Assembly (NCBI GenBank): GCA_958296075.1
Contig: CATQHW010000001.1
Span: forward strand, 372,001 to 436,000
Direction: 5' to 3'
Length of the DNA stretch: 64,000 nucleotides
Source of the DNA: an uncultured Spirochaetia bacterium
GTDB lineage: Bacteria; Spirochaetota; Spirochaetia; SZUA-6; Bin103
Made by a program: the position numbers and the translations under genes. The notes under the pieces are model-generated. The model saw only the letters and a list, made by a program, of their open reading frames with translations, ran no database searches and was not told the origin of the DNA. Each line of letters begins with the position of its first letter. Position 1 is the first letter of the stretch. Positions 4,047 through 57,488 of the stretch are shown here, in pieces.

Positions 4047-5126
4047 TTACGCGGTTGCAGCCGACTGGGGACGCACGGCCATGCCGACGTAGGCCTTCGC
4101 CACCGTTCGGGCGCCCCGCTCGATGACCACCTTGACGTGGTTGATACCCTGATGGACGAGGTACGTCTCTCCGCCGCCCAGCAGGCGTTCGGTATTCGGC
4201 CAGCGGCGCAGCCCTTCGGCTTTCGCGGGAAGGCACCAGCCCCGCTCCTCGATCCGGGCGATCAGGGGGCGCCACCCCGTACGATCGACCGGAAACCAGT
4301 TCCGGGAGCGGTACAGCTCCAGACCGAGCCGCGGCCCCGGCCCCTGCGCGGTCACGTCCAGGCTGACAAAGACGTAGGCGACAAGGTCGTCCAAGGAAGT
4401 GATTACGTCCGCCGCCGCGGCCGTCGGGCCGGGCCACTGCAGCCGCTCCAGCAAGGCGGGCACCTCTTCCTTCGTGACGCCCGCGACGACCAACCGGAAT
4501 CCCTTTGGGGAGCGCGCCGGAAGAACTCCGGCCTGGAACACGTAGCCCGTTTCCGGCAGGGCCGAAAAGATGCGTTCGACTCCTCGGAGAAACTCGTCGT
4601 GGCCACTCCAGCCAGCGACGGCCGCGAGCGTCGCGAGCAGGCCCTCGGGATCCCGATGCTCGTGGACCCCCTCCCGCGATCCGGAGGCGGAGCGCCGCGC
4701 CGCGAGGAAGATGCCGGGGGAGGACGCTGGGGAAGGCGGCGTGAGTCCGGCCAGATCGTATTCCAGCATCAGCGCGGCCACGGACCGGGCGAGGTAGGAC
4801 TCCGTATTCCCGGCCTGTTCCAGAAGCCCCGCCCCGAGCGCGGCCGCCGCCGACCCCGGCTCGGCGTGCGCGCCCTCGCGGATATAGTGCTGCGCCAGGG
4901 CGGACCCCGACGGCACAACGACGCAGAGATCGGCGTGACCCATGGCCTCGCCGAGATGGAACTCGAAGCCGAAATGGGTGTCGATCACGGCACGGGGCAA
5001 CACCCCCACTCGCTCCAGGAGGCGTTCCCAGCCGGCGGAATCGACCAGCGCCGGCGGGAACAGGGAGCGGCATCCGGCAAGGATCGAGGCGAAGCCGCCC
5101 CGCGTCGAGCGGCTTACCCCGTCCAC
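4047..5126 (-). CDS. Unknown protein next to an NHLP RiPP precursor; candidate maturation enzyme
   Basis: The 359-aa product has no signal peptide or membrane helix, and I cannot assign it to a named family with confidence. Notable features are FGFEFHLGEAMGHADLCVV near residue 55, GPRLGLELYRSRNWF near residue 265, then RGWCLPAKAEGLRRWP, and a closing GINHVKVVIERGARTVAKAY. The ending (HVK...AKAYVGM) is reminiscent of conserved hypothetical proteins beside RiPP synthetases and, more weakly, of the last strands of cyanobactin-type prenyltransferases; this is recollection, not a search. It starts with GTG 90 bp downstream of the precursor gene on the same strand. No cyclodehydratase, radical SAM or LanM gene is nearby, so it is the only local candidate modifier. 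Confidence 0.6.
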   Translation of the reverse strand: MDGVSRSTRGGFASILAGCRSLFPPALVDSAGWERLLERVGVLPRAVIDTHFGFEFHLGEAMGHADLCVVVPSGSALAQHYIREGAHAEPGSAAAALGAGLLEQAGNTESYLARSVAALMLEYDLAGLTPPSPASSPGIFLAARRSASGSREGVHEHRDPEGLLATLAAVAGWSGHDEFLRGVERIFSALPETGYVFQAGVLPARSPKGFRLVVAGVTKEEVPALLERLQWPGPTAAAADVITSLDDLVAYVFVSLDVTAQGPGPRLGLELYRSRNWFPVDRTGWRPLIARIEERGWCLPAKAEGLRRWPNTERLLGGGETYLVHQGINHVKVVIERGARTVAKAYVGMAVRPQSAATA

Positions 5127-5215: not shown

Positions 5216-5503
5216 TCAAAGCTCCCACGGCTCCCGCCCCACACCGGCCCAGGAGAACCCTCCCGCGGCCTGCTCCAGATCGGCTTCACCCAGATTGGCG
5301 GAGGGCGGAAGGATCAGGTGACTGATATCCGCCGTGTCCTCGTGCACCTCGACGGTGAACCCGGCGGGCACGTCGACGCCGATTTCCGCCTGGATCGCGG
5401 CCTTGGGGTCGGCGATCAACCGGGTGCGGAATTCGCCGTCCACCGTCGCCTTGCCGATCACGCGATCACGCATCTCGCTGATGGTCGCCGTTTTCTCGTT
5501 CAT
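5216..5503 (-). CDS. NHLP-type RiPP precursor peptide 1
   Basis: The 95-aa peptide has the nitrile-hydratase-like leader architecture: an amphipathic start, then FRTRLIADPKAAIQAEIGV, then VEVHEDTADISHLILPPSA, ending in LEQAAGG at residues 81-82. Cleavage after GG would release the core FSWAGVGREPWEL (13 residues). The core has no Cys or Thr, one Ser and two Trp, so lanthionine or azole chemistry is unlikely. The start is set by a strong ribosome site (AAGGAGAGG) just upstream of the ATG. A promoter with a special upstream element precedes it (5541-5610). A paralogue of identical length lies at 29967-30254. Confidence 0.85.
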   Translation of the reverse strand: MNEKTATISEMRDRVIGKATVDGEFRTRLIADPKAAIQAEIGVDVPAGFTVEVHEDTADISHLILPPSANLGEADLEQAAGGFSWAGVGREPWEL

Positions 5504-5540
5504 GTTCCTCTCCTTCTTCGGGAAAGATTTGCTGACTGAA

Positions 5541-5610
5541 AGGCTATCGACGGCGGCCGGTCGGTGTCAAGGCGACCGCCGGAGAAATGACTTATCCGGG
5601 ATTTCCGTGG
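5541..5610 (-). promoter_or_regulatory. Promoter and conserved upstream element of NHLP precursor 1
   Basis: On the minus strand: TTGACA at 5565-5570, an 18-base spacer, TAGCCT at 5541-5546. Fourteen bases upstream of the -35 is a 26-bp element (5585-5610) that includes CGGAAATCCCGGATA. The element matches the one upstream of the second NHLP gene at 21 of 26 positions, at exactly the same distance from the -35, while the spacer DNA between them differs. This suggests a shared activator site or UP-like element. Confidence 0.6.
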
Positions 5611-24522: not shown

Positions 24523-25749
24523 TCACAGCCCCGTGACGTCCACCGCGCCGATCTCGATGTCTTCCTTGTTGACGGAGTAGCCGACCAGCAGACGGTCCGG
24601 CTCCTCCAGGCAGCAGGGATACATGTAGCCCTGCAGTTTGAGCAACCCGCGGATCCGCTGGTCCGTCGGATCGTCCACCAGGATGTACACCCGATCGAAA
24701 CGGTATCCGTCATCGCCGATCAGCAGCGTCAGGTGCAGGCGATTGTGCAGCGTCGCGTTGGCGTTGTTGCACAGGTAGAAGCGGCCGTCGGCCAGCCGGC
24801 CAGCGTAGTTGCGCGACATGGCATCCGGGATGTCGGAGATCATCGGATCGCTGAAACTGCGGCCGCCGTCGGTGCTGTGGTTCACCCAGACACGCCCCGA
24901 CTGGCTCTCGTCCCGCCAGAAAACCACGATCGTGCCGTCATCGGTCTGGTACCAGCTCGATTCGCCGCCGTCCAGCTTCGCCCCGAACGGTTGCGGCAGC
25001 GGCAGGATCGCAGGCGTCTGCAGAATGTCAGAGCCCGGCCACAGGAGGATCGCCGGACCGCTGCGCCGGTCGATCGATGACACGCACAGGAGCCGGCCTT
25101 CCGCGGTCATTCGAGGCGTCTCGTAGGTCGCCGCGACGCGCTCGGGAAGCGTCGCTTCCCGCGACCACGCGCTGCCGTCATGCGACGCGTACACGTACGT
25201 CCGCGCGTTGTGCCAGTCGGCGTAGTAGCCGCCCCCTACCGCGTTGGAGTTGGGGTCACGCACGCGGCGCGCCCAGCGGATCATCATGTACAGCGATCCG
25301 CCCAGCGCGGTCAGGCCCACGCACTTGTAGGCGTCGCGCGTGTCCTCCCCCCCGCCGATCACCGATGCGGGGGCGCTCCACTCGCGCCCGTCGTCGGAGT
25401 GGGAGATGCGCACCTGCTGTCCCTCGGTGTCCTCGTCGAGCCGGCCGTTGGTGAACCCGTAGTAGTAGCGGCCTTCCAGCGCCGCGAGCTGCGAGTCGAT
25501 GTTCCAGGAGCCCGCCTCCCGGCTGGCGGTATAGACGCGCGAACGCTCGAACGGCGCATAGGGGATGATCGGCGGCACGCGTGCGCGCAGGCCCTGGTCA
25601 GTGTAGCGAAGGATGCATCCACGTTCCTGCAGGCACTCCAGCGTGTGGAACTTGCCGAGCCGGTCGGCCGCCTCCGGACCGAGCATGGTGACGTATGGCC
25701 GGGACGCGATCTGCAGCCCCGCAACGCCTGTCGCCATCGACCCTCTCAT
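24523..25749 (-). CDS. Sialidase/BNR-like beta-propeller protein 2
   Basis: The 408-aa protein contains Asp-box-like motifs SHSDDGREWS, SHDGSAWSR and STDGGRSFSD and repeated WYQ/YYGF elements of a propeller fold. No signal peptide. Start at 25749, with AGAGG eight bases upstream; an in-frame ATG at 25737 is an alternative. It is the second gene after the binding protein on the minus strand, with a hairpin between them, and converges on the LplC gene. Substrate unknown. Confidence 0.7.
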   Translation of the reverse strand: MRGSMATGVAGLQIASRPYVTMLGPEAADRLGKFHTLECLQERGCILRYTDQGLRARVPPIIPYAPFERSRVYTASREAGSWNIDSQLAALEGRYYYGFTNGRLDEDTEGQQVRISHSDDGREWSAPASVIGGGEDTRDAYKCVGLTALGGSLYMMIRWARRVRDPNSNAVGGGYYADWHNARTYVYASHDGSAWSREATLPERVAATYETPRMTAEGRLLCVSSIDRRSGPAILLWPGSDILQTPAILPLPQPFGAKLDGGESSWYQTDDGTIVVFWRDESQSGRVWVNHSTDGGRSFSDPMISDIPDAMSRNYAGRLADGRFYLCNNANATLHNRLHLTLLIGDDGYRFDRVYILVDDPTDQRIRGLLKLQGYMYPCCLEEPDRLLVGYSVNKEDIEIGAVDVTGL

Positions 25750-25766
25750 GCAGAGATCCTCTCAGG

Positions 25767-25796
25767 TGGTCGAGCGAGCCTGCGCCCGCTCGACCA
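25767..25796 (-). terminator. Perfect 10-bp hairpin between binding protein and propeller gene
   Basis: TGGTCGAGCG pairs with CGCTCGACCA around a 10-base loop. It lies 45 bases after the binding-protein stop and 17 bases before the next start. There is no T-run, so it is more likely an mRNA-stabilising or attenuating stem that keeps the binding protein in excess over downstream products, as is common in ABC operons. Confidence 0.5.
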
Positions 25797-25840
25797 CGCC
25801 GGTTATTCGATCCGCGGTCCGCCCGTCGCGCGCCCCGCGA

Positions 25841-27598
25841 TTACCAGCCCATCACCGCGGCCCACTCGGGGCGCGGCGTGACGGTGATCAGGCTCTCGCG
25901 GTCGTCGACGTCGTTGTCGCTCATCCACTGCTCCCACCGCTGCTGGCGCTCCTCGTAGATCGACCGCCAGTCGGTGATGTCGATCAGGCTCGCAAGCGCG
26001 GCATCGTAATCGGCCTCGAAGTTGCCGGAGGTGATCAACGCGGCGAGGGCGGCGTCGAACCGCTCCCTGGCGGTCGCCATCGCCGAAGCCTCGCGCGGCG
26101 GCAGCGCCACGGTCAGTTGCGCGTACGACGGGATCGAGCTCACCACGGACGCCAGCGGAATCGTGAACGCCGGCGACCAGGACGGCATCGTCGGGTCGCC
26201 CGGGCGATCGCCCACCGCGACGCCGTTCTCACGCAACGCCTGCAGGCTGTGGTAGTTGAGCCGCTGCTGCCATGATGCGTAGTTGGGGGTCCCGAACCAG
26301 TGGCCGTGCGGGGTCACCAGCGGCGGCCGTCCGGCCTGCCGGGTCGTCTCCACGCTGTCCTGCGAATTGGCGATCTGCCGCGAATCATGCGGATGCCTGC
26401 CCTGCAGCTCCGGCTTCATGCGCCAGACCTCCGGGCCGTCCACGAAGTCCCAGTGCACCCCCAGATAGCCGGCGGCGAACATGTTCGAGATACGTCCCTC
26501 GTCGGTCATGTGCCACTGGAGGAACTTCATGACCCCGTCCGGGTTGGGGATGTCCGCCGAAAGCAGCGACGGATTGGGCTGCTTGTTGACGATCCGGCCG
26601 GGAGCGTCGGCGATCGGGTTGACCATCATGATGAACTGCGTGTCGATGGCGGCTTGCGTCTCCGGAGCGTTGCGGCCGTACGTGTCGACGAACCCGGGGA
26701 TCACGTCGTCGCCCATCACCGATGCGTACCACGGCTCGCCGGCGGCGATCGCGTAGCTCGAGGTCTTCAGCCGGTCGATGAATCCTGCCGTATCCATGAC
26801 GAACTGCCCCGCGCCGATCAGCCCCTCGTTCCAGAGCAGGTTGAGGAACTTGAACGACTCGTAGGTCTCAATCGAAGCCCACTCCGGCATCAGCCGCTTC
26901 TCGGCATCCACTTCCCATCCGGCTCCCTTGAGCTGGTACACCACGCGGTGGTTGACCTGCGGCCACGCGCTCCGCCACTGGAAGGGGATGACCGGATCGC
27001 CTGCAAGGTCGGTCAGGCCGGACGCCTTGACCGCCCGCAGCACCTCGAGCAGCTCATCGGTGGTCTTGGGGTAGCCGTATTCCTCGTAGACGTCCTTGCG
27101 GATGTACCAGAGCGCGTCGACCGACACGTCCTCGCACTTCACTGCCCATTCCCAGCCGGGAAGCCCGTAGACCTGGCCATCGACCTTGTACTTCGACAGG
27201 TAGCTCTGGCAGGCGCTGGCGATGATCGGGTAGTTCACCGAGTCGCGAAAATACGCGTCGAGCGGCAGCAACCGGCCGCCGACCGCCAAATCGGCCATGG
27301 TCGTGAAGGGCATGTTCCACATCAGGTCCGGGAACTCGTCCTGGGCGATCAGGAGCTGCAGCGCCTGGTCGGCCGTCTGCCCGTCGGGCACCTTGTCGAT
27401 CCTGCTGACGGTGATGCCGAACTTCTCGCTCGCCCATTCGTTGGAAACGGCGAGCAGTTCCTCGTCGAACGGCCCGTGCGGGACCCCCCAGATCCAGATA
27501 CCGCGATCCGCCTCCATCGAAGCGGATTCCTGGCCGCCCTCCGCAAAGAGCGGCAGCGCGATCGAAAGGACGATCAGGACAGTCGAGACCTTCCTCAT
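25841..27598 (-). CDS. Extracellular solute-binding protein of a sugar ABC transporter (system 1)
   Basis: The 585-aa protein begins with a signal peptide, MRKVSTVLIVLSIALPLFAE, followed by GGQESAS, a junction common in spirochaete binding proteins. It has the LplA-type layout: a long two-lobe protein with QLLIAQDEFPDLMWNMPF and PDGVMKFLQWHMTDEGRI. Start at 27598, set by AAGGGAGG six bases upstream; an in-frame start at 27622 is less likely. No lipobox Cys. It probably serves the permeases at 20351 and 23583. A 106-bp piece of this gene is copied at 30384-30489. Confidence 0.85.
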   Translation of the reverse strand: MRKVSTVLIVLSIALPLFAEGGQESASMEADRGIWIWGVPHGPFDEELLAVSNEWASEKFGITVSRIDKVPDGQTADQALQLLIAQDEFPDLMWNMPFTTMADLAVGGRLLPLDAYFRDSVNYPIIASACQSYLSKYKVDGQVYGLPGWEWAVKCEDVSVDALWYIRKDVYEEYGYPKTTDELLEVLRAVKASGLTDLAGDPVIPFQWRSAWPQVNHRVVYQLKGAGWEVDAEKRLMPEWASIETYESFKFLNLLWNEGLIGAGQFVMDTAGFIDRLKTSSYAIAAGEPWYASVMGDDVIPGFVDTYGRNAPETQAAIDTQFIMMVNPIADAPGRIVNKQPNPSLLSADIPNPDGVMKFLQWHMTDEGRISNMFAAGYLGVHWDFVDGPEVWRMKPELQGRHPHDSRQIANSQDSVETTRQAGRPPLVTPHGHWFGTPNYASWQQRLNYHSLQALRENGVAVGDRPGDPTMPSWSPAFTIPLASVVSSIPSYAQLTVALPPREASAMATARERFDAALAALITSGNFEADYDAALASLIDITDWRSIYEERQQRWEQWMSDNDVDDRESLITVTPRPEWAAVMGW

Positions 27599-27659
27599 GG
27601 AACCTCCCTTGTCGTGGGGCACCTGTCTGGATGATCATGGTGCCCGTATCGACACCCAC

Positions 27660-27688
27660 ACGTTAGGCGAGGACTTCGCGACCGTCAA
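27660..27688 (-). promoter_or_regulatory. Putative sigma-70 promoter of the binding-protein gene
   Basis: Minus strand: TTGACG (27683-27688), 17 bases, TAACGT (27660-27665), in the divergent gap between the binding protein and the RraA-like gene. Confidence 0.45.
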
Positions 27689-27721
27689 GGTCGAACGTCC
27701 GCCGCCGACAGGGAGAGAAAC

Positions 27722-28459
27722 ATGGCGGAAGCGCCGGAGGGGACAGCTCTCCTCGATGATTTGGCCCGATTCGACACGCCCACCATCTGCAACGTGATCG
27801 AGCTGTTCGACGTGCGCTCACCTGCCGGTGGATTCATGGACCGGAACGTTCGTTGCGAGTATCCCGAGCTGCCGCCGATGGTCGGGTATGCGGCTACGGC
27901 CACCTATCGGTCCGCCTACGCTCCGGCAGAGGGCGAAGCCTGCGGACTCGCCGATTTGCTTGCGAGTTTCGAATCGCTGCCGGGCCCCGCGGTGGTGACG
28001 ATCCAGGACCTGGACGAGCCGCCGGCGGCGGCCTGCTTCGGCGACGTTGCCTGCAACAGCTACCTGGCGTTCGGCGCGCGCGGCGTGGTCACCTCCGGCG
28101 CCGGCCGCGATCTGGAGCAGGTACAGGCCCTGCGCTTCCCGGCGTTTACCAGCGGCACGATCTGCTCGCACGGGTTCAGCTACCTGGTGGACACCGGTAT
28201 CCCCGTGCAGGTCGGCGGGATCACGGTGCGTCCCGGCGATCTGATCCATGGAGACCGCAACGGGGTCGTGATCATCCCGCCGGCGATCGCCGCTCAGGTC
28301 GCCGCGCTGGCCGACGACCTCATCGCGGCGGAGCAGGACGTGCTCACGTACGTGCAGTCGGCTCGGCCGCCGACCGTCGCCGGCTACCGCGACGCCGTGG
28401 CGCGCATGCAGCGGAAGCTGGCCGCTCTCAAGGAACGGATCTCCGCGGATCCGGACTGA
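27722..28459 (+). CDS. RraA-family protein (HMG/CHA aldolase-like)
   Basis: The 245-aa protein has the RraA/dimethylmenaquinone-methyltransferase-like fold markers: FDTPTICNVIELFDVR, CFGDVACNSYLAFGARGVVT, SGAGRDLEQV and PVQVGGITVRPGDLIHGDRN. The G-D-x-x-x-x-x-A and R-D pairs match metal-dependent 4-hydroxy-4-methyl-2-oxoglutarate/4-carboxy-4-hydroxy-2-oxoadipate aldolases. It could cleave a 2-keto acid made by the enolase-superfamily and dehydrogenase genes. A GGGAGAG site precedes the ATG. Truncated relics of the same family occur at 55975-56197. Confidence 0.78.
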   Translation: MAEAPEGTALLDDLARFDTPTICNVIELFDVRSPAGGFMDRNVRCEYPELPPMVGYAATATYRSAYAPAEGEACGLADLLASFESLPGPAVVTIQDLDEPPAAACFGDVACNSYLAFGARGVVTSGAGRDLEQVQALRFPAFTSGTICSHGFSYLVDTGIPVQVGGITVRPGDLIHGDRNGVVIIPPAIAAQVAALADDLIAAEQDVLTYVQSARPPTVAGYRDAVARMQRKLAALKERISADPD

Positions 28460-28483
28460 CCGGCGACGGGAGCAGAGGGACCG

Positions 28484-29677
28484 TTGGCGACCCAGCCGGA
28501 CCTGACCGCCGCCGGTGGCGACCGTCCCACGCCTGAGGAGGCGGCGCGCAACGCACCGCTGCTCGCCGGCTACGACTACGACCGCTACCCGTCATCGATC
28601 ACCGGGTTCACCGGCCTCAATCTGCAGCGCGTCTTCGTGCGGCGACAGATGCGCGCGGTGCGCGCCCGCGTCGGGCCGCGCGGCAACTTCAAGGGGGCCA
28701 TCGCGCGTCTGTCCGACGGCGCGCTGGTGGCCGCGGCGTGCCGTCGGATCGACGAGCGCGGGCTGTTCGGCATACACGTCTACCGCAGCGCCGACCGCGG
28801 ATCGACGTGGGACGAGATCGGTGAAGACCCGCTCTACGGCAAGGAGATGAGCCTGACAGCGCTGCCGGACGACGCTCTGTTGCTCACGGTGGAGTCGACC
28901 GTGCCCGGCTACCCGTCGATGACCTTCGCCGACGATCCGACCAGGATGTTCTACCACCGATCGGCCGATGGCGGTCGCACCTGGGACACCGGATCGATCG
29001 ACGGACCGGGCAAGCCACGCAACGTGCTGGTCGAACCGGACGGAAGCCTGCTCATGGCGCGCCCGCGATGCTCGGCGTACCTGCACCGCCTTTATTCATT
29101 GCAAGGCCGGCCGTTCGCGCCGAGCCCGGATCTGGAGCTCAGCCGATCCGCGGACGGCGGCCGCACGTGGCAGAGCACGACCGGCCGCGTGGCGTGGCAG
29201 GTCACCACCTTCGGCGAGGTGTCGATCGCGCGCCTTCCCGGCGGCCGCCTGCTGGCGTCGCTGCGCACCAACCCGCCCGGCACGGAAGGCGAGGGGCAGC
29301 AAGTCACGTACCTCACGAGATCGGATGACGGCGGGGCTACCTGGTGCGCGCCGTGGCCGATGACCAACCTGGCCGAGGTGCAGGTGAACCTGCTCGTGCT
29401 GCGTGACGACCGGCTGCTGGCGACGTATACCAACTACCATCTGCCGTTCGGCGTGTGCGCCGTGGTGTCCGACGACGGCGGCCGGACGTGGAGCTTCGAC
29501 GCCCCGGTGCAGCTCGCGCTGTCGGCGGACTGCTATACGGGCTGGCCGGTGACCGTCGAGCTCGATGACGGCGTATTCATCACCTGCTACATGATCACCG
29601 CCTTTCTGAACGAACCGCCCGACCCCAAGGGCGTGCAGCGCAGCGTCTGCGAGGTGGTCCGCTGGCGACTGCCTTGA
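28484..29677 (+). CDS. Sialidase/BNR-repeat beta-propeller protein 3
   Basis: The 397-aa protein has five or more Asp-boxes: SADRGSTWD, SADGGRTWDT, SADGGRTWQ, SDDGGATWC and SDDGGRTWS. It starts with TTG after GAGGG. No signal peptide. It follows the RraA-like gene by 24 bases. Its final 51 bases and the DNA after its stop are repeated at 30490-30640, which shows that this end took part in a local duplication. Confidence 0.75.
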   Translation: MATQPDLTAAGGDRPTPEEAARNAPLLAGYDYDRYPSSITGFTGLNLQRVFVRRQMRAVRARVGPRGNFKGAIARLSDGALVAAACRRIDERGLFGIHVYRSADRGSTWDEIGEDPLYGKEMSLTALPDDALLLTVESTVPGYPSMTFADDPTRMFYHRSADGGRTWDTGSIDGPGKPRNVLVEPDGSLLMARPRCSAYLHRLYSLQGRPFAPSPDLELSRSADGGRTWQSTTGRVAWQVTTFGEVSIARLPGGRLLASLRTNPPGTEGEGQQVTYLTRSDDGGATWCAPWPMTNLAEVQVNLLVLRDDRLLATYTNYHLPFGVCAVVSDDGGRTWSFDAPVQLALSADCYTGWPVTVELDDGVFITCYMITAFLNEPPDPKGVQRSVCEVVRWRLP

Positions 29678-29950
29678 AACCACCTCGTCTTCTGACCAGC
29701 TTCGCTCCGACCCCCAGGAGCGCCGGTGGAGTCAGTGGCGCGTGATGACCGGGGCTGCGACGGGCTGCAGGCGGACGTTGCCGATCACCGCCACGAACGG
29801 CAGATCGTGGCGCACGGCCGTGTCGATCTCCAGCGGGTGAAACCCGAAGGTGCCGTCTCCCATCGTCGCGGCGATGCGCGCGACGGGAAACAGCGTGCGG
29901 GCGGCGAGCGCGAACGGCAGCGCCGCCCCGCTCGCGCCTGCAGGACCGCT
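29627..29950. repeat. Segmental duplication, copy A (propeller 3' end plus TPP-enzyme 3' end)
   Basis: From 29627 (AAGGGCGTGCAGCGC) to about 29782 the sequence matches 30490-30643 almost base for base. It then jumps, by deletion of about 200 bases at a short ACGTTG-like junction, to match the region from about 30841 to 31000. Similarity is lost near 29950. Copy B is attached to the intact TPP-enzyme gene, so copy A is the derived one. Confidence 0.8.
29732..29950 (-). pseudogene. TPP-enzyme C-terminal fragment with internal deletion
   Basis: This frame encodes GASGAALPFALAARTLFPVA, MGDGTFGFHPLEIDT and then, after a deletion of about 66 codons, VRLQPVAAPVITRH. Both parts are nearly identical to the C-terminus of the intact gene at 30595-32202. 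It has no start or N-terminal domains and cannot be functional. Confidence 0.8.
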
Positions 29951-29964
29951 GAGCGGCTCAGCGG
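29946..29964 (-). terminator. Hairpin just after NHLP precursor 2
   Basis: CCGCTGAG and CTCAGCGG form a perfect 8-bp stem with a 3-base loop, two bases after the precursor's TAA. No T-run follows, so it may be a transcript-end or stability hairpin. It marks the left border of the inserted precursor cassette. Confidence 0.4.
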
Positions 29965-29966
29965 GA

Positions 29967-30254
29967 TTACCAGTGGCTAATGAGTGAGTCGACATTCCGC
30001 CCAAAAAACCTCGACTGACCCCCCGCGGCGACCGCCTGCAGGTCGCCTTCGCTCAGCTTGCTGTCGGGGGGAAGAACCAGATGCGCGGTCGCGCCGCTCT
30101 CTTCGTGAACCTCGACCGACAGAGACGCTGGAATGGTGACACCCAACTCCTGCTTGATCGCCCCCTTCGGATCGCTCAGCAGCCGGGCGCGGAAGTCCGA
30201 GTCCTCGGCTGCCTTGCCCACGATCCTCGCCTGCATTTCCTTTGCCGTTTCCAT
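29967..30254 (-). CDS. NHLP-type RiPP precursor peptide 2 (orphan)
   Basis: The 95-aa peptide is colinear with precursor 1: IVGKAAEDSDFRARLLSDPK, GVTIPASLSVEVHEE, HLVLPPDSKLSEGDL, then AVAAGG (residues 78-79). The predicted core after GG is QSRFFGRNVDSLISHW (16 residues): no Cys or Thr, two Ser, two Phe, one His and a C-terminal Trp. The start is fixed by GAGGAGG just upstream. It has the same promoter type as precursor 1. No modification or export gene is adjacent; it sits within a mosaic of duplicated fragments, so it may rely on the 359-aa protein at 4047 or on distant genes. Confidence 0.83.
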   Translation of the reverse strand: METAKEMQARIVGKAAEDSDFRARLLSDPKGAIKQELGVTIPASLSVEVHEESGATAHLVLPPDSKLSEGDLQAVAAGGQSRFFGRNVDSLISHW

Positions 30255-30308
30255 GGTTCGTTCCTCCTCAAATAGAGTTATGGTTACGTGTCCCGCACGA
30301 TCACCTGT

Positions 30309-30377
30309 ACCCTACGATACCGGCCATCCGATGTCAAGGCCAGATGCACAAAAATGTGTTATCAGGAATTTCCGGGG
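30309..30377 (-). promoter_or_regulatory. Promoter and conserved upstream element of NHLP precursor 2
   Basis: Minus strand: TTGACA (30332-30337), 17 bases, TAGGGT (30309-30314). The 26-bp upstream element (30352-30377, with CGGAAATTCCTGATA and then CATTT) is at the same distance from the -35 as in precursor 1. It ends seven bases before a fragment copied from the binding-protein gene begins, so promoter and peptide gene seem to have moved together. Confidence 0.6.
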
Positions 30378-30383
30378 AACGCG

Positions 30384-30489
30384 GCCGTATCCATGACGAA
30401 CTGCCCCGCGCCGATCAGCCCCTCGTTCCAGGGCAGGTTGAGGAACTTGAACGCCTCGTAGGTCTCAATCGAAGCCATTCCGGCATCAG
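30384..30489. repeat. 106-bp copy of a binding-protein gene segment
   Basis: This stretch matches 26787-26893 inside the solute-binding protein gene, in the same orientation, with a few substitutions and a one-base indel. It is out of context here, encodes nothing useful, and joins directly to copy B of the propeller/TPP duplication at 30490. Confidence 0.85.
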
Positions 30490-30643
30490 AAGGGCGTGCA
30501 GCGCAGCGTCTGCGAGGTGGTCCGCTGGCGACTGCCTTGAATCGCCTCGTCTTCTGAACCAGCTTCGCTCCGACCCCCAGGAGCGCCGGTGGAGTCAGTG
30601 GCGCGTGATGACCGGGGCTGCGACCGGCTGCAGGCGGACGTTG
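30490..30643. repeat. Segmental duplication, copy B
   Basis: Begins with the last 51 bases of the propeller-3 gene (copied from 29627 onward, including its TGA) and runs into the 3' end of the intact TPP-enzyme gene. Differences from copy A are a handful of single bases and small indels. Confidence 0.8.
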
Positions 30644-32202
30644 ACGCACGCGGGGAAGCCAGACGCGTGCGCCGCCTCCAGGGCCGCGGGCAGCGCGGCG
30701 GCCGATTCGACCGCGGCGCCGTAGGCGTCGAGCGCGCGGGCCACGCCGTCGTAGCGGCTGGCGCGCAGCTCGCAGCCGATCGCGCGGTCGGCTCCGTAGT
30801 TCCGGTGCTGTATCTGCACCTCCGCGTTCCAGCGCGCGTCGTTGCCGATCACCGCCACGAACGGCAGATCGTGGCGCACGGCCGTGTCGATCTCCAGCGG
30901 GTGAAACCCGAAGGTGCCGTCGCCCATCGTCGCGGCGATGCGCGCGACGGGAAACAGCGTGCGGGCGGCGAGCGCGAACGGCAGCGCCGCCCCGATCGCC
31001 CCCGCCGGACCGTTGATGATGCGATGCGGGGCGCTCACGCACGCCTGCGCCCACTGCCCGATCTCGCCGCCGTCGGAGACGAACACCGACTCGGCCGAGC
31101 CGGCCAGGAAGTCATGCACGGCATAGCCGAGCCGCGCGGGATGGACCGGCGAATCACCGCCGGCCTGACGCCAATGCGCGGGACGGTAGGCGACGGCCGC
31201 CTCGATCTCCTCGCGCCAACCGACATCCAGCGAGCAGCCGGCCAGCCGTTCTCCCATGGCCGCCGCCCACCGCCCCGGATCGCCCTGCGCCTGCAACATC
31301 AGGCGGCCGCCCGCGTTGCCGGCCGCTTGGCGCAGCGCCTCCGCCTCCGGGTCGATCTGCACGAACCGGCAGTCCGGCGCGAACGGCGGCGCCCGCCCGA
31401 GGTCCAGCATGTGGTCGAGCCGCTTGCCGAGCAGCACGACCAGGTCCGCTTCGGCCACCGCCTCCGCGAATGCGCCCAGGGCCGGGTCGCGCAGCCCGCG
31501 CGGACTGTCCATGGCGACCACCGCTACGCCCGCGTCGCTCAGACTGAGCGTCACACCGGCGGCGTGGCGGCGGCGGTACGGGGGGCCGGCGATCGCCAGC
31601 GGCCGAGCCGCCTCCCCGATCGCCCGGCATACCGCATCCAGGTCCGCCGGCGCCGGCGCGCTCCCCTCCTCCTCGGACTCGACCGCCGGCTCGGCGGCGG
31701 TCTGCACGACCGACTCCAGCACGTCGACCGGCACCGCCACGTGCACCGGGCCCGGACGTCCGGCCTTCGCACGGCGCCACGCCCGCGCGAAGTCGCCGGC
31801 GACCTGTTCGGGAGCGACGCAGGTCCACGACGCCTTGCAGACCGCGGCGGCCAGCCCGGCCTGATCCATCTCCTGGAACGCGCCGGCTCCGGGCCGCCCG
31901 GACGGGGCCGCGCCCGAAAGCAGGACCAGCGGCGACTCCGCGCACCTCGCCGCAAACAGGGCGGACAGCGTGTTGGCGAACCCCGGCCCGGCCGTGACCA
32001 GCGCGACCCCCGGCCGGCCGCTCAGCCGGCCGATGGCGTCGGCCGCGTGCACCGCCGCCGCCTCGTGACGGACGTGGATCAGCTCCAGCGGCACGTCGAC
32101 GGCGGCGTCGAACACCGACATGATCTGATTGCCGGACAGCGCGAAGACGTGCCGCGTACCGCCGGCGACGATGGCGCGCACCAGCGCGTCCGCCGCTCTC
32201 AT
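30595..32202 (-). CDS. Thiamine-diphosphate enzyme, acetolactate-synthase/benzoylformate-decarboxylase family
   Basis: The 535-aa protein has the three-domain layout: an N-terminal Pyr domain with the catalytic Glu in LIHVRHEAAAVHAADAI and GVALVTAGPGFANTLSALF, a central domain, and a C-terminal PP domain with the ThDP motif MGDGTFGFHPLEIDT ending in VIGND (G-D-G to N spacing typical). Reaction: decarboxylation or carboligation of a 2-keto acid; the substrate cannot be read from sequence. It follows the enolase-superfamily gene by 23 bases, so the two likely act in sequence on a sugar acid. A deleted partial copy lies at 29732. Confidence 0.8.
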   Translation of the reverse strand: MRAADALVRAIVAGGTRHVFALSGNQIMSVFDAAVDVPLELIHVRHEAAAVHAADAIGRLSGRPGVALVTAGPGFANTLSALFAARCAESPLVLLSGAAPSGRPGAGAFQEMDQAGLAAAVCKASWTCVAPEQVAGDFARAWRRAKAGRPGPVHVAVPVDVLESVVQTAAEPAVESEEEGSAPAPADLDAVCRAIGEAARPLAIAGPPYRRRHAAGVTLSLSDAGVAVVAMDSPRGLRDPALGAFAEAVAEADLVVLLGKRLDHMLDLGRAPPFAPDCRFVQIDPEAEALRQAAGNAGGRLMLQAQGDPGRWAAAMGERLAGCSLDVGWREEIEAAVAYRPAHWRQAGGDSPVHPARLGYAVHDFLAGSAESVFVSDGGEIGQWAQACVSAPHRIINGPAGAIGAALPFALAARTLFPVARIAATMGDGTFGFHPLEIDTAVRHDLPFVAVIGNDARWNAEVQIQHRNYGADRAIGCELRASRYDGVARALDAYGAAVESAAALPAALEAAHASGFPACVNVRLQPVAAPVITRH

Positions 32203-32225
32203 CGCTGTCGACCGCCGCTGCTCCG

Positions 32226-33485
32226 TCAGTCCGCGCCGACCACCGGGGCGGCCAGGGTCCGCTCGTAGAGCCGCTGGAACTCCGCGCTGCCGTCGTCATC
32301 GATCAGCTCGGTGACCACGCCACGCTCGCAGGCGGGCTGGTTGCCGGCCGCGAAGTAGTTCCACATCGACGTACCGGGCCGCCCCTTGTCCGGGAAGTGC
32401 ACCGTCAGTCCCGACGGCCGCCGGTAGCGGACCACGCGCCGCGGCAGGGTCAGGTCCGCCCGGTCCACCCGGTACCGCTCGAGCGCCCCCTCGTCCACCT
32501 CGACCCCCAGACCGGGCGCCGCGGGCACCGCGGCGTAGCCGCCGGCGACCGGGATGCGCGCCGCCAGCAGGTTATGCTCGTACAGCTCGTGCACGGTGAC
32601 CGCGGGCCAGCGGGCCGATGCCAGCACCGCGCCCAGGTGCAGGCACAGCGAGGTCGTCAGCCCGGTGCCGACCATCTGCAGGAAGAACGGCATGCGCGCA
32701 GCGCCGGCGAAGTGGCCTGCCCGGCAGATGGCGGAGATGCCGCCGCCGACCACGTAGCCGTCGCAGTACTCGGCGCGCGCCACGCCCTGGCGGCCCTCCG
32801 CGTAATGGTGGGCGATCGGCGTGCGCAGCCCGGAGCGCAGCCGCCGGTTACCGTCGACGTCGTCGGATGGGATCGGCCCCTCGTATATCTTGATCTTCGG
32901 GAACTCCGTCTCCAGCGCGCTCAGCACCGGCAGCGCGGTCGGCGCATCGAGCAGGAAGTCGTTCCAGTCGGCGTCGATGCTGAACCACGGCGGCGTCGTT
33001 TCGGAGATGCGCGCGATCGTCTCGTGCACGTCCCACCAGGGCCGCGTCTTGATCTTCATGCAGGTGTAGCCCAGACGCACCGCCTCGCGCGCCTCCGCCT
33101 CGTACAGCGCCGGGGACATGTCGTGGTCCCAGAACGATAGCGGGCAGTGACTGCGCACCTGCTCGCCGAGCAGGCGGTGCGCCGGCACGCCGGCCAGCTT
33201 GCCGGCCAGGTCGAGCACCGCCATCTGCAGGCCGGCGCCCAGGCTGTCGTCCCAGTACAGATCGAACGGCGAGCGGCCGATCGCCCGATCGCCGGCGTCC
33301 GCTCGCCCCCAGGTGTAGTTCTGGACCGTCTCGCCCCAGCCGCTGGCGCCGGAATCGGAGGTCACGCGGATCACCTCGACCTCCGACCAGGCGTGAATGC
33401 CGGCCCGCTCCATCTCGACCCGGATGCGGTCGACCATCGGCACCCAGAGCAGGGTGCGCTCCACCGAAGCGATTCTGGCGTCCAT
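32226..33485 (-). CDS. Enolase-superfamily dehydratase (mandelate racemase/muconate lactonizing type)
   Basis: The 419-aa protein has the capping-domain start VERTLLWVPMVDRIRVEM and the barrel with CMKIKTRPWWD (K-x-K catalytic lysine region), FSIDADWNDF (first metal Asp) and IYEGPIP (second metal Glu). Family enzymes abstract the alpha proton of a carboxylate, often dehydrating sugar acids. AGGAGG seven bases upstream sets the ATG start. With the downstream TPP enzyme and upstream MFS gene it forms a plausible acid-sugar uptake and breakdown group. Confidence 0.8.
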   Translation of the reverse strand: MDARIASVERTLLWVPMVDRIRVEMERAGIHAWSEVEVIRVTSDSGASGWGETVQNYTWGRADAGDRAIGRSPFDLYWDDSLGAGLQMAVLDLAGKLAGVPAHRLLGEQVRSHCPLSFWDHDMSPALYEAEAREAVRLGYTCMKIKTRPWWDVHETIARISETTPPWFSIDADWNDFLLDAPTALPVLSALETEFPKIKIYEGPIPSDDVDGNRRLRSGLRTPIAHHYAEGRQGVARAEYCDGYVVGGGISAICRAGHFAGAARMPFFLQMVGTGLTTSLCLHLGAVLASARWPAVTVHELYEHNLLAARIPVAGGYAAVPAAPGLGVEVDEGALERYRVDRADLTLPRRVVRYRRPSGLTVHFPDKGRPGTSMWNYFAAGNQPACERGVVTELIDDDGSAEFQRLYERTLAAPVVGAD

Positions 33486-33551
33486 CTGTTCCTCCTACCC
33501 AAGCCCGGTACCGTATCACGGAGCCTGGTCTTCCGGGCGCGGTCACGGGGA

Positions 33552-34772
33552 CTACGTCGAAGGCGCCGGCTCCAGCCGGCCCTGCCCCGGCAGGGGCTGA
33601 TCCTTGATCGGCAGGTGCACGATCGCCGCGGCGACCCCCAGGACGATCGCGCCGATCCAGACCGGGTCGTAGGAGCCGGTGGCGTCGAAGATGCGGCCGC
33701 CGAGCCAGACGCCCAGGAAGCTGCCTACCTGATGGGACAGGAAGACGATCCCGTACAGCGACGAGAGATGGCGCGCGCCGAAGATCTGCGCCACGGTGCC
33801 GCTGGTCAGCGGCACAGTCGCCAGCCACAGAAAGCCGATGACCGCCGCAAACACCAGCGCCGTCGCACTCGTGACCGGCACGATCAGGAAGCAGGCGATC
33901 GCCACCGCCCGCGAGAAGTACAGCAGGCTCAGCAGCCGCTTCTTGCGGAAACGGTCGCCCAGCCGGCCGAACAGGAACGAGCCGAGCATGTTGAACAGCC
34001 CGATCAGGGCCAGCGCCGTGGCGCCGATCGCCTGCGCCACGCCTTGGTCGACCAGAAAGGACGGCAGATGGGTGGCGATGAAGGCGACGTGAAAGCCGCA
34101 CACGAAGAAGCCGGCGTTCAGCAACAGATAGCCGGAGTGGGTGCGCGCCCGTCGGACCACGGCGCCGAAGCTCAGCTCGCCGGCGGCGCCGGAAGGCTCG
34201 TCCGCTCCGGTCGCGAACGCCGATCGGACCGGGAAGCCGACCGCGAACAACGCGATCGCTCCGACCGCCAGGGCGGCGTACAGCAGGGTCGCCTGCCACT
34301 GAACCGCGCCGATCAGCCACTGCATGGCCGGCACTACGGCAAAGGTCCCGAATGATCCCGCCGCGGTGATGATGCCGAAGGCCGTTCCCCGCCGCTCCGC
34401 CGGAACGACCTGCGCCACGGCGCCCAGAATCACCACGTACGAGGTCGCGCTCAGCGCCAGGCCGACCATCACGCCCAGGCCCAGGTAGAGCGTGGCTGCC
34501 GAGGCGGCCAGCGACAGCAGCGCGAACCCCAGGGCGTACACGGCGGCGCCCGCCGCCACCACCCAGCGCGGCCCGATCCGGTCGGCGATCATGCCGGCCA
34601 GCGGCAGCCCGAACATGATGTTCTGCACGGCCATGGAAAGGCTGAACGTCTCGCGCCCCGTGGACAGGGTGGCCGAGACCGGCTGCAGGAACAGCCCGAA
34701 CGACTGGCGCGCTCCCATGGCGATAGCCACCGTGACGGCGCCGAGCAGGATGACCGGAGCGGGACGTTTCAT
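33552..34772 (-). CDS. MFS transporter
   Basis: From ATG 34772 (MKRPAPVILLGAVTVAIAMG) the protein has about 406 residues and 12 predicted helices, with MFS loop motifs GMIADRIGPRWVV (between helices 2 and 3) and LFGRLGDRFRKKRLL (between 8 and 9). It resembles the monocarboxylate/cyanate-type branch. In-frame starts at 34820 and 34787 exist; none has a convincing ribosome site. It probably exchanges an organic acid used by the neighbouring enzymes. Confidence 0.78.
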   Translation of the reverse strand: MKRPAPVILLGAVTVAIAMGARQSFGLFLQPVSATLSTGRETFSLSMAVQNIMFGLPLAGMIADRIGPRWVVAAGAAVYALGFALLSLAASAATLYLGLGVMVGLALSATSYVVILGAVAQVVPAERRGTAFGIITAAGSFGTFAVVPAMQWLIGAVQWQATLLYAALAVGAIALFAVGFPVRSAFATGADEPSGAAGELSFGAVVRRARTHSGYLLLNAGFFVCGFHVAFIATHLPSFLVDQGVAQAIGATALALIGLFNMLGSFLFGRLGDRFRKKRLLSLLYFSRAVAIACFLIVPVTSATALVFAAVIGFLWLATVPLTSGTVAQIFGARHLSSLYGIVFLSHQVGSFLGVWLGGRIFDATGSYDPVWIGAIVLGVAAAIVHLPIKDQPLPGQGRLEPAPST

Positions 34773-35057
34773 GACGGTGGCGAGCATACCAATTGGTCGA
34801 GGCCGATCTGGCGGTATCACGGTATCATGAAGACGAGCAAGGACGCCGTCGCCGGGGCGTTTCCGCTGCCTTGGTCGGCCGGCGCGCGGTGGCCGAGAAT
34901 CGGGTCAGCGTCGTGCTGCTGAGCGCGGGTTGTCCTGCTCCGTGCTGCGCAGCCCCTCGGTAACGCTCGATGCGGTATAGTCGACACATGGGCGGCTGCA
35001 TGGACGGTTCGCCGTCGTTTCACGATCGAGCCCGGATCAGGCGCTCTCAGCTCCGGA

Positions 35058-55920: not shown

Positions 55921-55974
55921 GATCGTTCAGCTCCGCAGTCTATGGGCGGGAACGCAGCGCCGCAAGCCAGCCGG

Positions 55975-56197
55975 GCCGTCCTCTTCGGCGTCCCCGGTGG
56001 AGATTGCGGGCTCCCGATCAATCCGGGCGACCTGCTGCACGGCGATGAGCGGGCTGCTGACGATACCGGCCGAGATTGCCGACCGGGTCCCGCAACAGGC
56101 GCAGGCGGTGTTGGACGTGGAGGCGCCGCTGTTCGAGCTGCTGGAGCGTGACGAGGTGTCGTTGCGGGAACTGCTCGACGCGTATAACGTGCACTGA
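55975..56197 (+). pseudogene. RraA-family C-terminal remnant with several frameshifts
   Basis: Alternating frames give ASPVEIAG, LPINPGDLLHGDER and GLLTIPAEIADRVPQQAQAV, DVEAPLFELLERDEVSLREL, the end of an RraA-like protein (compare PVQVGGITVRPGDLIHGDRN in the intact gene at 27722). At least three shifts within 220 bases show advanced decay. Confidence 0.65.
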
Positions 56198-56199
56198 CC

Positions 56200-57009
56200 A
56201 TGGCCCACCGCATCTATGACCGCGCCGGCATGAGGAAGGTCCAGAAACCGCTCGCCGGCATACTCGCATCCGTAGCACTCACCGCCGGAGCACTGCTCGC
56301 CGGCAGCAGCCTTCTGTGGGGCGACCTTTACGACGTCAGATGGGGGTACGACGGAGACGTCGGCCCGGCGCACTGGGGCTCGCTCGATCCGGCGTTCGCC
56401 GCCTGCGCCCGCGGCTCCGAACAGTCGCCGGTAGACCTCGCCGACGCGCACTCCCGCATCCAGCCCATGATCGACTTCGACTACGCCGCGCGTTCGGCCG
56501 AAATCGTCAACAACGGCCACACCATCCAGGTGAACGTCGCGCCCGGCAGCGGCGTCATCGTCGACGGCGTGCGCTACGAACTGCTCCAGTTTCACTTTCA
56601 CCGCGGCAGCGAACACACGGTCGCCGGCGTCCGGCTTCCGTTGGAGTTGCACCTGGTCCACCGGAGCGACGAGGGCGCCTTGGCCGTGGTCGGCGTCCTG
56701 TACCGCGAAGGCGCCAGCAACCAGGCGCTCGCGCCGATCTGGGAGCTTCTGCCACCGGAGCCGGACGCCACGGTAGCACTCCCGGGCACGATGGACGTGG
56801 CGGCGTTGCTGCCGGATCGCCGCACGACGTGGCGCTACCGGGGATCGCTCACGACGCCGCCCTGCACCGAGAGCGTGTCCTGGCTGATCATGACCGAACC
56901 GATGACCCTGTCGGCGCAGCAGATCGCGACGTTCGCCGCGATCTACGACGGCAACTACCGACCCGTACAGTCGCTCAACGATCGCCTCCTCGGCCGGGAT
57001 GACCGATGA
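56200..57009 (+). CDS. Alpha-class carbonic anhydrase
   Basis: The 269-aa protein has a signal-like hydrophobic start (from ATG 56233: MRKVQKPLAGILASVALTAG), then WGYDGDVGPAHWGSLDPAFA, GSEQSPVDLADAHSRI, two zinc His in LLQFHFHRGSEHTVAG (residues about 130-132), the third in LELHLVHRSDEGALAVVGV, and RYRGSLTTPPCTESVSWLI. All alpha-CA signatures are intact. It catalyses CO2 hydration in the periplasm. The start is 56200 or, more probably, 56233. Neighbours are unrelated. Confidence 0.9.
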   Translation: MAHRIYDRAGMRKVQKPLAGILASVALTAGALLAGSSLLWGDLYDVRWGYDGDVGPAHWGSLDPAFAACARGSEQSPVDLADAHSRIQPMIDFDYAARSAEIVNNGHTIQVNVAPGSGVIVDGVRYELLQFHFHRGSEHTVAGVRLPLELHLVHRSDEGALAVVGVLYREGASNQALAPIWELLPPEPDATVALPGTMDVAALLPDRRTTWRYRGSLTTPPCTESVSWLIMTEPMTLSAQQIATFAAIYDGNYRPVQSLNDRLLGRDDR

Positions 57010-57488
57010 CGGGAGCGGTACGTATAACCACGAACTCGCTCGGTCAGGCGTCAGGGCGTCGTGTCGATAGCGAACGCTGACGATCGCATCGACCGCCGGC
57101 GCCATGATGTCTGCGATGACGCAGTCTGCCGATGAGGTCGCCAACACACCGCTCCAGTCGCGCTGACGGAGCACGACCCGGTACGCGTCGAGTGAGGTTG
57201 CACGTTGTTCCAAAATCTCAGCTACCTCGGCTGACCAGCAGTCATACCCCCGGGCTGGGCGAACCTACGGAAATCCCGGATAGCCATGTTCTTCGGGCGG
57301 GGGTTGACGCCGAACGACCGCCGCCGATATTGTGGTGGTCAACGGCGTCGAACTTCTCCGGCCGCGACCAGCATGACACGGTCGTGACCGGAGATCATTT
57401 CCACCAACGGTGACGGTGACTTCAGCAGCCAAAGACCATCCTGCCGTTCGAGCGCCGCCGCTCCACCGGGCGCGGTCAAGTCCGGCGG
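57010..57488. other. 479-bp gap without a gene, holding an orphan promoter element
   Basis: No frame looks coding. A minus-strand frame from 57213 lacks recognisable motifs and I reject it. The stretch contains the third copy of the NHLP-type promoter (57268-57333) but no precursor gene after it. Confidence 0.6.
57268..57333 (+). promoter_or_regulatory. Orphan copy of the NHLP-type promoter and upstream element
   Basis: CGGAAATCCCGGATA (57268-57282) is identical to the element of precursor 1 over 15 bases. After 21 bases comes TTGACG (57304-57309), an 18-base spacer and TATTGT (57328-57333). The geometry matches the two precursor promoters (22 bases, then TTGACA). Downstream there is only non-coding DNA and then a convergent gene end. 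Confidence 0.6.

Follow-up and report, generated by a model that had tools for sequence, protein, structure and literature searches.

NHLP (nitrile hydratase-like leader peptide, proteusin) precursors have been described from sponge symbionts, where SrpE and MprE7 combine a long NHLP leader, an LxxxxL motif before Gly-Gly and a core that ends in Trp (PMC10858898; all papers cited here are represented by excerpts). In the SrpE core, three Cys residues become thiazolines and Trp is brominated. The pair PalX/PalQ yields an NHLP precursor with a prenylated C-terminal Trp (PMC10853753), and NctPC, an ABBA prenyltransferase fused to a terpene cyclase, acts on Trp of a ribosomal peptide (described in PMC13290415). 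Here, we describe an NHLP-leader precursor gene that sits within a mosaic insert between two convergent genes of an uncultured Spirochaetia bacterium (genome G000; 4.05 Mb in five contigs). The locus belongs to a stretch of 64,000 nucleotides, termed the window, which covers positions 372,001 to 436,000 of contig CATQHW010000001.1 (1.08 Mb; assembly GCA_958296075.1). The insert is probably a scar of DNA repair in which a gene cassette acquired by horizontal transfer is embedded.

The BNR propeller gene (plus strand) and the thiamine pyrophosphate (TPP)-enzyme gene (minus strand) are convergent across positions 28484-32202 of the window, and their true ends are separated by an insert of 863 bp. 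The locus and the source of one of its fragments comprise the following features:

28484..29677, plus strand: BNR-repeat propeller gene, intact (PF13088, 57 bits; open reading frame, ORF); with its true 3' end at the left edge of copy A
29627..29783, plus strand: copy A, made of propeller end, intergenic sequence and TPP 3' end; repeat of 30490-30646 at a spacing of 863 (self-comparison)
29781..29932, minus strand: TPP-gene fragment beyond a 201-bp in-frame skip; repeat of 30845-30996 (self-comparison)
29933..30388, minus strand: precursor cassette, from box and promoter through 3' hairpin, of a type seen in a Binatia metagenome-assembled genome (MAG); 86% over the whole cassette and 90-94% over parts, against the Binatia array
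30384..30489, minus strand: fragment of the binding-protein gene; source 26787-26893 (self-comparison)
30490..30541, plus strand: partial second copy of the end of the propeller gene (100% identity, 52 bp)
30595..32202, minus strand: TPP-enzyme gene, intact, acetolactate-synthase-like (PF02776, PF02775 and PF00205, all above cut-off)
25841..27622, minus strand: extracellular solute-binding protein gene, from which the 106-bp fragment derives (PF01547)

Self-BLAST revealed the order of the insert, from left to right after the true BNR end, as a TPP-end copy, the 201-bp skip, further TPP sequence, the precursor cassette, 106 bp of the binding-protein gene, a second BNR-end copy and the true TPP end. 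Positions 29627-29783 repeat 30490-30646 (96% identity, E 1e-68), 29776-29952 repeat 30840-31016 (97%, E 4e-81) and 30384-30489 repeat 26787-26893 (96%, E 8e-45); with E-values of about 1e-44 to 4e-81 for the duplicated blocks, chance is excluded. The initial annotation had placed duplicated fragments of three genes around the precursor, in the order copy A, precursor, 106 bp and copy B. Self-alignment recovered all three repeats, far beyond chance, in that order, and traced the 106 bp to the binding-protein gene, as had been claimed, at a distance of 3.6 kb (3.5 kb in the initial annotation); the cassette limits given then, 29951-30383, now become 29933-30388 by comparison with the array of another genome. 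The duplicated mosaic structure is thus confirmed, as read from the assembly sequence.

The duplicated blocks differ by both substitutions and indels, which makes a plain assembly duplication unlikely. The BNR/TPP-end copies at spacing 863 are 96.8% identical (3.2% diverged, 5/155 columns), the TPP-fragment copies beyond the skip 99.3% (0.7%, 1/149 columns), and the binding-protein fragment and its source 96.3% (3.7%, 4/107 columns). Exactly 201 bp of the TPP gene are missing from copy A (repeat spacings of 863 versus 1064), corresponding to an in-frame skip of 67 codons. Copy A is the derived one, because TPP relatives from two Gammaproteobacteria and one Alphaproteobacterium (46-56% amino acid identity) align through the segment that it lacks. 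The genuine BNR end lies on the left side and the genuine TPP end on the right, both host genes being intact, and all non-cassette blocks of the insert share one orientation. The 456-bp cassette unit is present once in the genome and has a GC content of 60.5%, compared to 67.4% in its surroundings. No orthologous BNR-TPP neighbourhood was found: a TPP search of 61 genomes gave distant matches only (identity 27-33% for the best by E-value, up to 40% over short stretches), a BNR scan of the named genomes gave no relative, the DNA of 28401-32250 had no match in G001-G003, and within 15-16 kb around the TPP relatives in three other genomes there was no match to BNR, the solute-binding protein or RraA.

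Further analysis of the cassette revealed an intact ORF together with its putative expression signals:

29967..30254, minus strand: NHLP-leader precursor of 95 residues (TIGR03793, 71.9 bits versus a cut-off of 50.9); core after GG: QSRFFGRNVDSLISHW
30358..30376, minus strand: upstream box CCCGGAAATTCCTGATAAC, exact in Binatia promoters, the genome's own type being CACGGAAATNCCGGATAAG (sequence comparison)
30332..30337, minus strand: -35-like TTGACA, read from the sequence; same position in the Binatia copies
30309..30314, minus strand: -10-like TAGGGT with a 17-bp spacer, read from the sequence and aligned with Binatia
29946..29964, minus strand: hairpin directly 3' of the stop codon, with an 8-bp perfect stem; the hairpin is also present in the array copies (sequence)

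The precursor matches in profile the MprE7-TH1 structure (PDB 8tb1), with an E-value of 3e-16. Its Gly-Gly-type leader/core boundary follows an LxxxxL motif, LSEGDLQAVAAGG in the translation, like that of PMC10858898, and its core ends in ISHW, that is, in a C-terminal Trp, which is the last residue of most MET-type cores. It thus shares with SrpE and MprE7 the long NHLP leader, the motif and the Trp-ending core; compared to SrpE, the cores here lack the run of Cys residues. A ribosome site, GAGGAGG, lies upstream of the ORF. As the cassette carries box, promoter, ribosome site, ORF and hairpin, it could be expressed as a unit, and by its contents it appears self-contained and able to be expressed where it is inserted. 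No enzyme gene is linked to it; the nearest candidate lies at a distance of 25.5 kb, and that of matching subtype is on another contig. The capture of a precursor together with its promoter agrees with the initial proposal that a leader-promoter unit can move without its enzymes.

In a scan of named genomes, the closest relatives of the precursor lay in other phyla, namely in a Candidatus Binatia MAG (87 and 94% amino acid identity), followed by Gamma- and Alphaproteobacteria MAGs (66-87%). The Binatia relatives sit in an array of 18 precursors that spans 13 kb on one strand, along with three enzyme genes. DNA similarity to this array spans promoter, leader, core and 3' hairpin, and it sets the cassette limits at 29933-30388. 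The promoter of the cassette shares 90, 90 and 88% identity with three promoters of Binatia, compared to at best 73% with nine other promoters of its own genome (shuffles average 56%, with a maximum of 64%). The window leader groups with 10 Binatia leaders in a tree of 63 rows (support 100/95; 63 of 100 rows passed a filter on leader start and length) and again in a tree of 59 rows after four were dropped (98/94). By contrast, RpoB of the two genomes is 47% identical over 873 residues, and 400 kb of this genome shares with 400 kb of the Binatia MAG only three stretches of at least 80% identity, the longest of at most 102 bp. The cassette was matched in 1 of 297 genomes of the class, which is G000 itself, and in 1 of 148 genomes of the Binatia phylum, which is that MAG; these searches scored 2-4 candidates per genome, and weak matches could be missed. 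Hence, both an identity far above the genome background and a phylogeny at odds with the organism, by which horizontal transfer is recognized, were observed, and part of the insert was most likely acquired by horizontal transfer. Transfer would have been into this genome, because it has a single copy and the Binatia MAG an array. The dN/dS of the leader against Binatia is 0.2-0.76, which is uninformative on selection after transfer.

Three of the four joints carry short matches. The TPP-skip joint has a 5-bp microhomology (CGTTG), the joint of the TPP fragment with the cassette 3' end has 3 bp (GCG) within a homeologous stretch, and the joint of the cassette 5' end with the binding-protein fragment has 5 bp (ACGGC) relative to two Binatia copies or 3 bp relative to the third. 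Random joints in the region have at least 3 bp in 7.9% and at least 5 bp in 1.1% of cases. These microhomologies lean towards template switching or microhomology end joining, without proving either. Ku is encoded in the genome, so end joining may be available, and short-patch illegitimate recombination during transformation, which is known in bacteria, is an alternative to template switching here. Neither terminal inverted repeats nor a target duplication were found at the joints, and a scan of eight proteins from 24526-34820 revealed no transposase domain. The insert resembles the products of template switching by microhomology-mediated break-induced replication or fork stalling and template switching (MMBIR/FoSTeS), which in the excerpt of PMC2621351 likewise show discontinuous duplications with deletion, nearby sources and joints of mostly 3-5 bp; unlike these, it includes foreign DNA and one blunt joint.

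We propose that the cell received DNA from an array of precursors whose type is now present in the Binatia MAG. In a single event of repair or replication at the convergent BNR/TPP ends, synthesis would have run through the TPP end, skipped 201 bp at the 5-bp match, switched onto the cassette at the short homeologous stretch and then, at a match of 3-5 bp, onto the binding-protein gene 3.6 kb away, before a blunt return to the propeller end that left both host genes intact. The cassette would be expressed at its landing site, and the peptide would be modified in trans, probably by E2, a protein encoded on another contig, on its C-terminal Trp. The earlier idea that template switching captured a precursor gene is retained in part: the short matches at three of four joints and the captured precursor with its promoter are in line with it. 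The foreign type of the cassette had not been foreseen; it points to horizontal transfer in this event or a previous one.

Several observations weigh against this reading. The joint between the binding-protein fragment and the BNR end is blunt (0 bp), and the hairpin is unexceptional by shuffling (fold z-score only -1.1 to -1.4). Viral, phage and plasmid collections gave no match to the cassette, so that no vehicle was found and a phage or plasmid as carrier was rejected. The nearest Binatia copies differ from the cassette by 5-14%; the Binatia genome is thus not the immediate donor, and with a difference of at least 5% a third party may have been the source for both genomes. In an approximately unbiased (AU) test of the leader, grouping with the genome's own leaders was not rejected (p 0.318; 0.050 when a long-branched row was included). 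Moreover, the divergence of the blocks is uneven, from 0.7 to 3.7%, which makes several events possible, and the mosaic was perhaps made in more than one. A stepwise origin, in which the cassette inserted first and a later local duplication with deletion, together with capture of the binding-protein fragment, built the mosaic, would accommodate this unevenness as well as the 5-14% difference of the array members, and the genome often makes such scars (9/20 control stretches). The single orientation of the non-cassette blocks and the intact host gene ends are nevertheless as in one chain of switches, and the difference in divergence is weak, since the blocks are small (1/149 versus 5/155 and 4/107 columns). 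We hold such a stepwise origin to be conceivable, though rather doubtful.

The AU result, a 16-row clade uniting the Binatia leaders with this genome's leaders (98/98) and about a dozen NHLP precursors in the genome, one of them 90% identical to the window precursor over leader DNA, would also suit a native duplicate, namely a precursor of the genome's own family with a diverged promoter, whose similarity to Binatia reflects older shared ancestry. An origin from the genome's own precursors was dropped once promoter, core and 3' end matched Binatia, the leader tree alone not being decisive. The promoter, the variant of the box, the core and the 3' end all agree with Binatia, no match was obtained in the 296 remaining genomes of the class at 2-4 scored candidates per genome, and DNA of such identity is otherwise hardly common to both genomes; a native duplicate is thus unlikely. 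A dedicated mobile element that moves precursor cassettes might explain the dispersal of precursors over the genome, several of them lacking enzymes, and an integrase-core-like fragment, which we take to be IS3-type, is located some 90 bp past the precursor at C2:1605 kb. As inverted ends, a target duplication and a transposase were all not seen at the locus, and plasmid, phage and viral collections had no match, such an element is quite unlikely. An artefact of assembly or binning, i.e. a chimeric join of reads from different symbionts, is very improbable: the structure is known from the assembly, and the bin has a contamination estimate of 5.24%, but host fragments lie on both sides of the cassette within the 1.08-Mb contig, the copies differ by substitutions and indels, and the genomes searched as a source of the chimera contain no identical cassette. 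Altogether, a repair scar with a horizontally acquired cassette remains our preferred reading.

The mosaic is not peculiar to the precursor gene. Copy pairs of 40-1500 bp, at least 85% identical and at least 300 bp apart, were counted within 20-kb stretches, leaving out the final 4 kb of the window and stretch L050, which has no precursor; pairs were counted unsorted, and repeated domains or mobile elements may be among them. In this genome, 23 copy pairs were counted in control stretches totalling 400 kb (9 of 20 stretches), compared to 7 pairs in 3 of 7 precursor stretches (139.9 kb) and 5 pairs in 2 of 3 stretches of the first 60 kb of the window. Because 9/20 control stretches hold similar local copies, the mosaic as a precursor-specific device was ruled out. 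G025, a single-contig genome of the same order, has one copy pair in 400 kb (1/20 stretches); G001 has 2 in 130 kb and G002 none in 174 kb, both being fragmented assemblies that may hide repeats. The Binatia genome has 8 in 400 kb, the alphaproteobacterial one 5 in 200 kb and the gammaproteobacterial one 3 in 200 kb. One control (L070:5364-5953, C1:25 kb) consists of four successive pieces from 2-3 kb away, copied in inverted orientation and with gaps; it shows the same skipping pattern and has no precursor.

Candidate modifying enzymes are encoded beside other precursors of the genome, including the following pair in the window:

4047..5126, minus strand: E1, prenyltransferase-like, beside precursor 1; no Pfam or NCBIfam match (family fold ABBA barrel, modelled on the homologue E2)
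5216..5503, minus strand: precursor 1, of subtype 1, the second NHLP precursor of the window; a box of the genome's own type lies at 5591-5609 (sequence)

E1-type proteins occur in this window and at two C2 loci; E2 (C2:1022659-1023660) lies between two precursors at C2:1022-1024 kb; neither E1 nor E2 matches a Pfam or NCBIfam family. E2 was modelled by AlphaFold2 from an alignment of 19 sequences (A2), with a predicted local distance difference test (pLDDT) value of 79 and a predicted template modelling score (pTM) of 0.80; for A2, two rows of E2 whose aligned span contained an in-frame stop were removed or exchanged, some further rows were trimmed, and L132 and L138 were omitted. Structural similarity search of the model using Foldseek revealed ABBA-barrel prenyltransferases (best E 5e-7), with the peptide prenyltransferases PagF, DciF and KgpF also listed, and VIA-align gave a Z-score of 15.8 for FunA (root-mean-square deviation of 4.6 over 301 residues) and of 14-15.4 for several Trp prenyltransferases; the structures matched thus include aromatic as well as peptide prenyltransferases. 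A trans-isoprenoid-synthase (trans-IDS) fold does not appear among the well-scoring matches listed, which are ABBA barrels, and seems the less probable fold for the enzyme. E2 is thus likely an ABBA-barrel prenyltransferase-like protein. Its relatives in Binatia, alphaproteobacterial and gammaproteobacterial genomes are 73-78% identical, far above RpoB. Since the core of the window peptide ends in Trp, we propose that this residue is most likely prenylated in trans.

Compared to the SrpE/MprE7 systems (PMC10858898), the enzyme beside the linked precursors here has a different fold. As with PalX/PalQ (PMC10853753), the linked loci of this genome combine an NHLP leader, a conserved C-terminal Trp and a prenyltransferase beside the precursor; however, PalQ belongs to the isoprenoid-synthase superfamily, whereas the protein here models as an ABBA barrel. 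At C2:975 kb (L048:15104-17196), a prenyltransferase-like gene is immediately followed by a squalene-cyclase-like gene beside precursors, which recalls two-domain RiPP (ribosomally synthesized and post-translationally modified peptide) prenyltransferase-cyclases. The modelled ABBA fold and this gene pair resemble NctPC (PMC13290415); unlike in NctPC, the prenyltransferase-like and cyclase-like genes are separate here, cyclase genes having been sought only where encountered. The proposed Trp prenylation has known counterparts in PalX/PalQ and NctPC and would be at most a further member.

In total, the genome has 12 NHLP precursor loci, one of them broken, and the box CACGGAAATNCCGGATAAG or a near variant lies upstream of 8 of the 9 other precursors compared. 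The box was rejected as a precursor-specific operator, for it also precedes a binding-protein gene (C3:448010, L060) and a probable lipoprotein gene (C2:706822, L068). In the window, 57255-57336 is a fragment of a precursor promoter, 86-91% identical to the promoters of two C2 precursors, with a box at 57266-57284, and behind this fragment no intact precursor was found; positions 55961-56254 share 92% identity with C2:992417-992715. A broken precursor at C1:908-909.6 kb (L046:8645-10147) sits behind several short fragments of other loci, some of which recur in stretches with an integrase-core-like fragment. Another precursor at C1:630.8 kb (L045:9776-10051) is 92.5% identical to window positions 5249-5528, has no upstream box and is distant from enzyme genes of the kind described above.

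Cores are also shared between phyla. The core QSRxFGxNVDxxISxW occurs in Binatia, two Alphaproteobacteria, three Gammaproteobacteria and this genome, AVMGDIGRIWRVQDW in Binatia, one gammaproteobacterium and this genome, and ARPRGQEWDPRTW in Binatia, two Alphaproteobacteria and one gammaproteobacterium. Nearest neighbours of cores and leaders were compared across 22 sources, excluding L133 (same isolate as L134) and L141-L161; 100 of 103 hits were kept after de-duplication, 78 of the 100 precursors could be split and 50 were judged (MET-type, with a close core elsewhere). The nearest relative lay in the same genome for 3/50 cores and 30/50 leaders, and in the same lineage for 30/50 cores and 48/50 leaders. 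By this comparison of sequences, leaders follow lineage and cores less so. Despite shared cores, lineage-specific leader types (METAK, METAQ and METP) are seen among L127, L150, L128-L139 and this genome. Several of the compared MAGs are presumably sponge symbionts, and we assume a common community of origin for this genome and the OY282 MAGs; the excerpt of PMC12648040 contains no OY282 accession. Tentatively, at least four bacterial lineages might share a library of RiPP cores, in which single cassettes, complete with promoter and 3' hairpin, cross phyla as bare DNA, microhomology repair inserts them and resident prenyltransferases act in trans; leaders would stay uniform in a given lineage, matched to its enzyme, while cores circulate, and repertoire and enzyme would be inherited separately.

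Prochlorosins have a conserved leader, variable cores and unlinked precursors. They differ in their Nif11 leader class and their enzyme, and single cassettes appear to cross phyla here. Prochlorosin precursors are likewise served by a solitary promiscuous enzyme (excerpt of PMC10783134).

Our literature search, for which subscription papers were mostly outside reach, found none on single precursor cassettes moving between phyla. That bacteria exchange whole RiPP clusters is established; one precursor that crosses phyla together with its promoter but without enzymes, at joints that can still be read, would be a finer unit of exchange than the whole cluster. The frequent short dispersed copies in this genome amount to a natural archive of illegitimate repair events in a bacterium that has not been cultured, and the shared cores with lineage-specific leaders would bear on how microbial communities share peptide repertoires. 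Altogether, this raises the testable question of whether a resident enzyme can use a foreign precursor that arrives alone.

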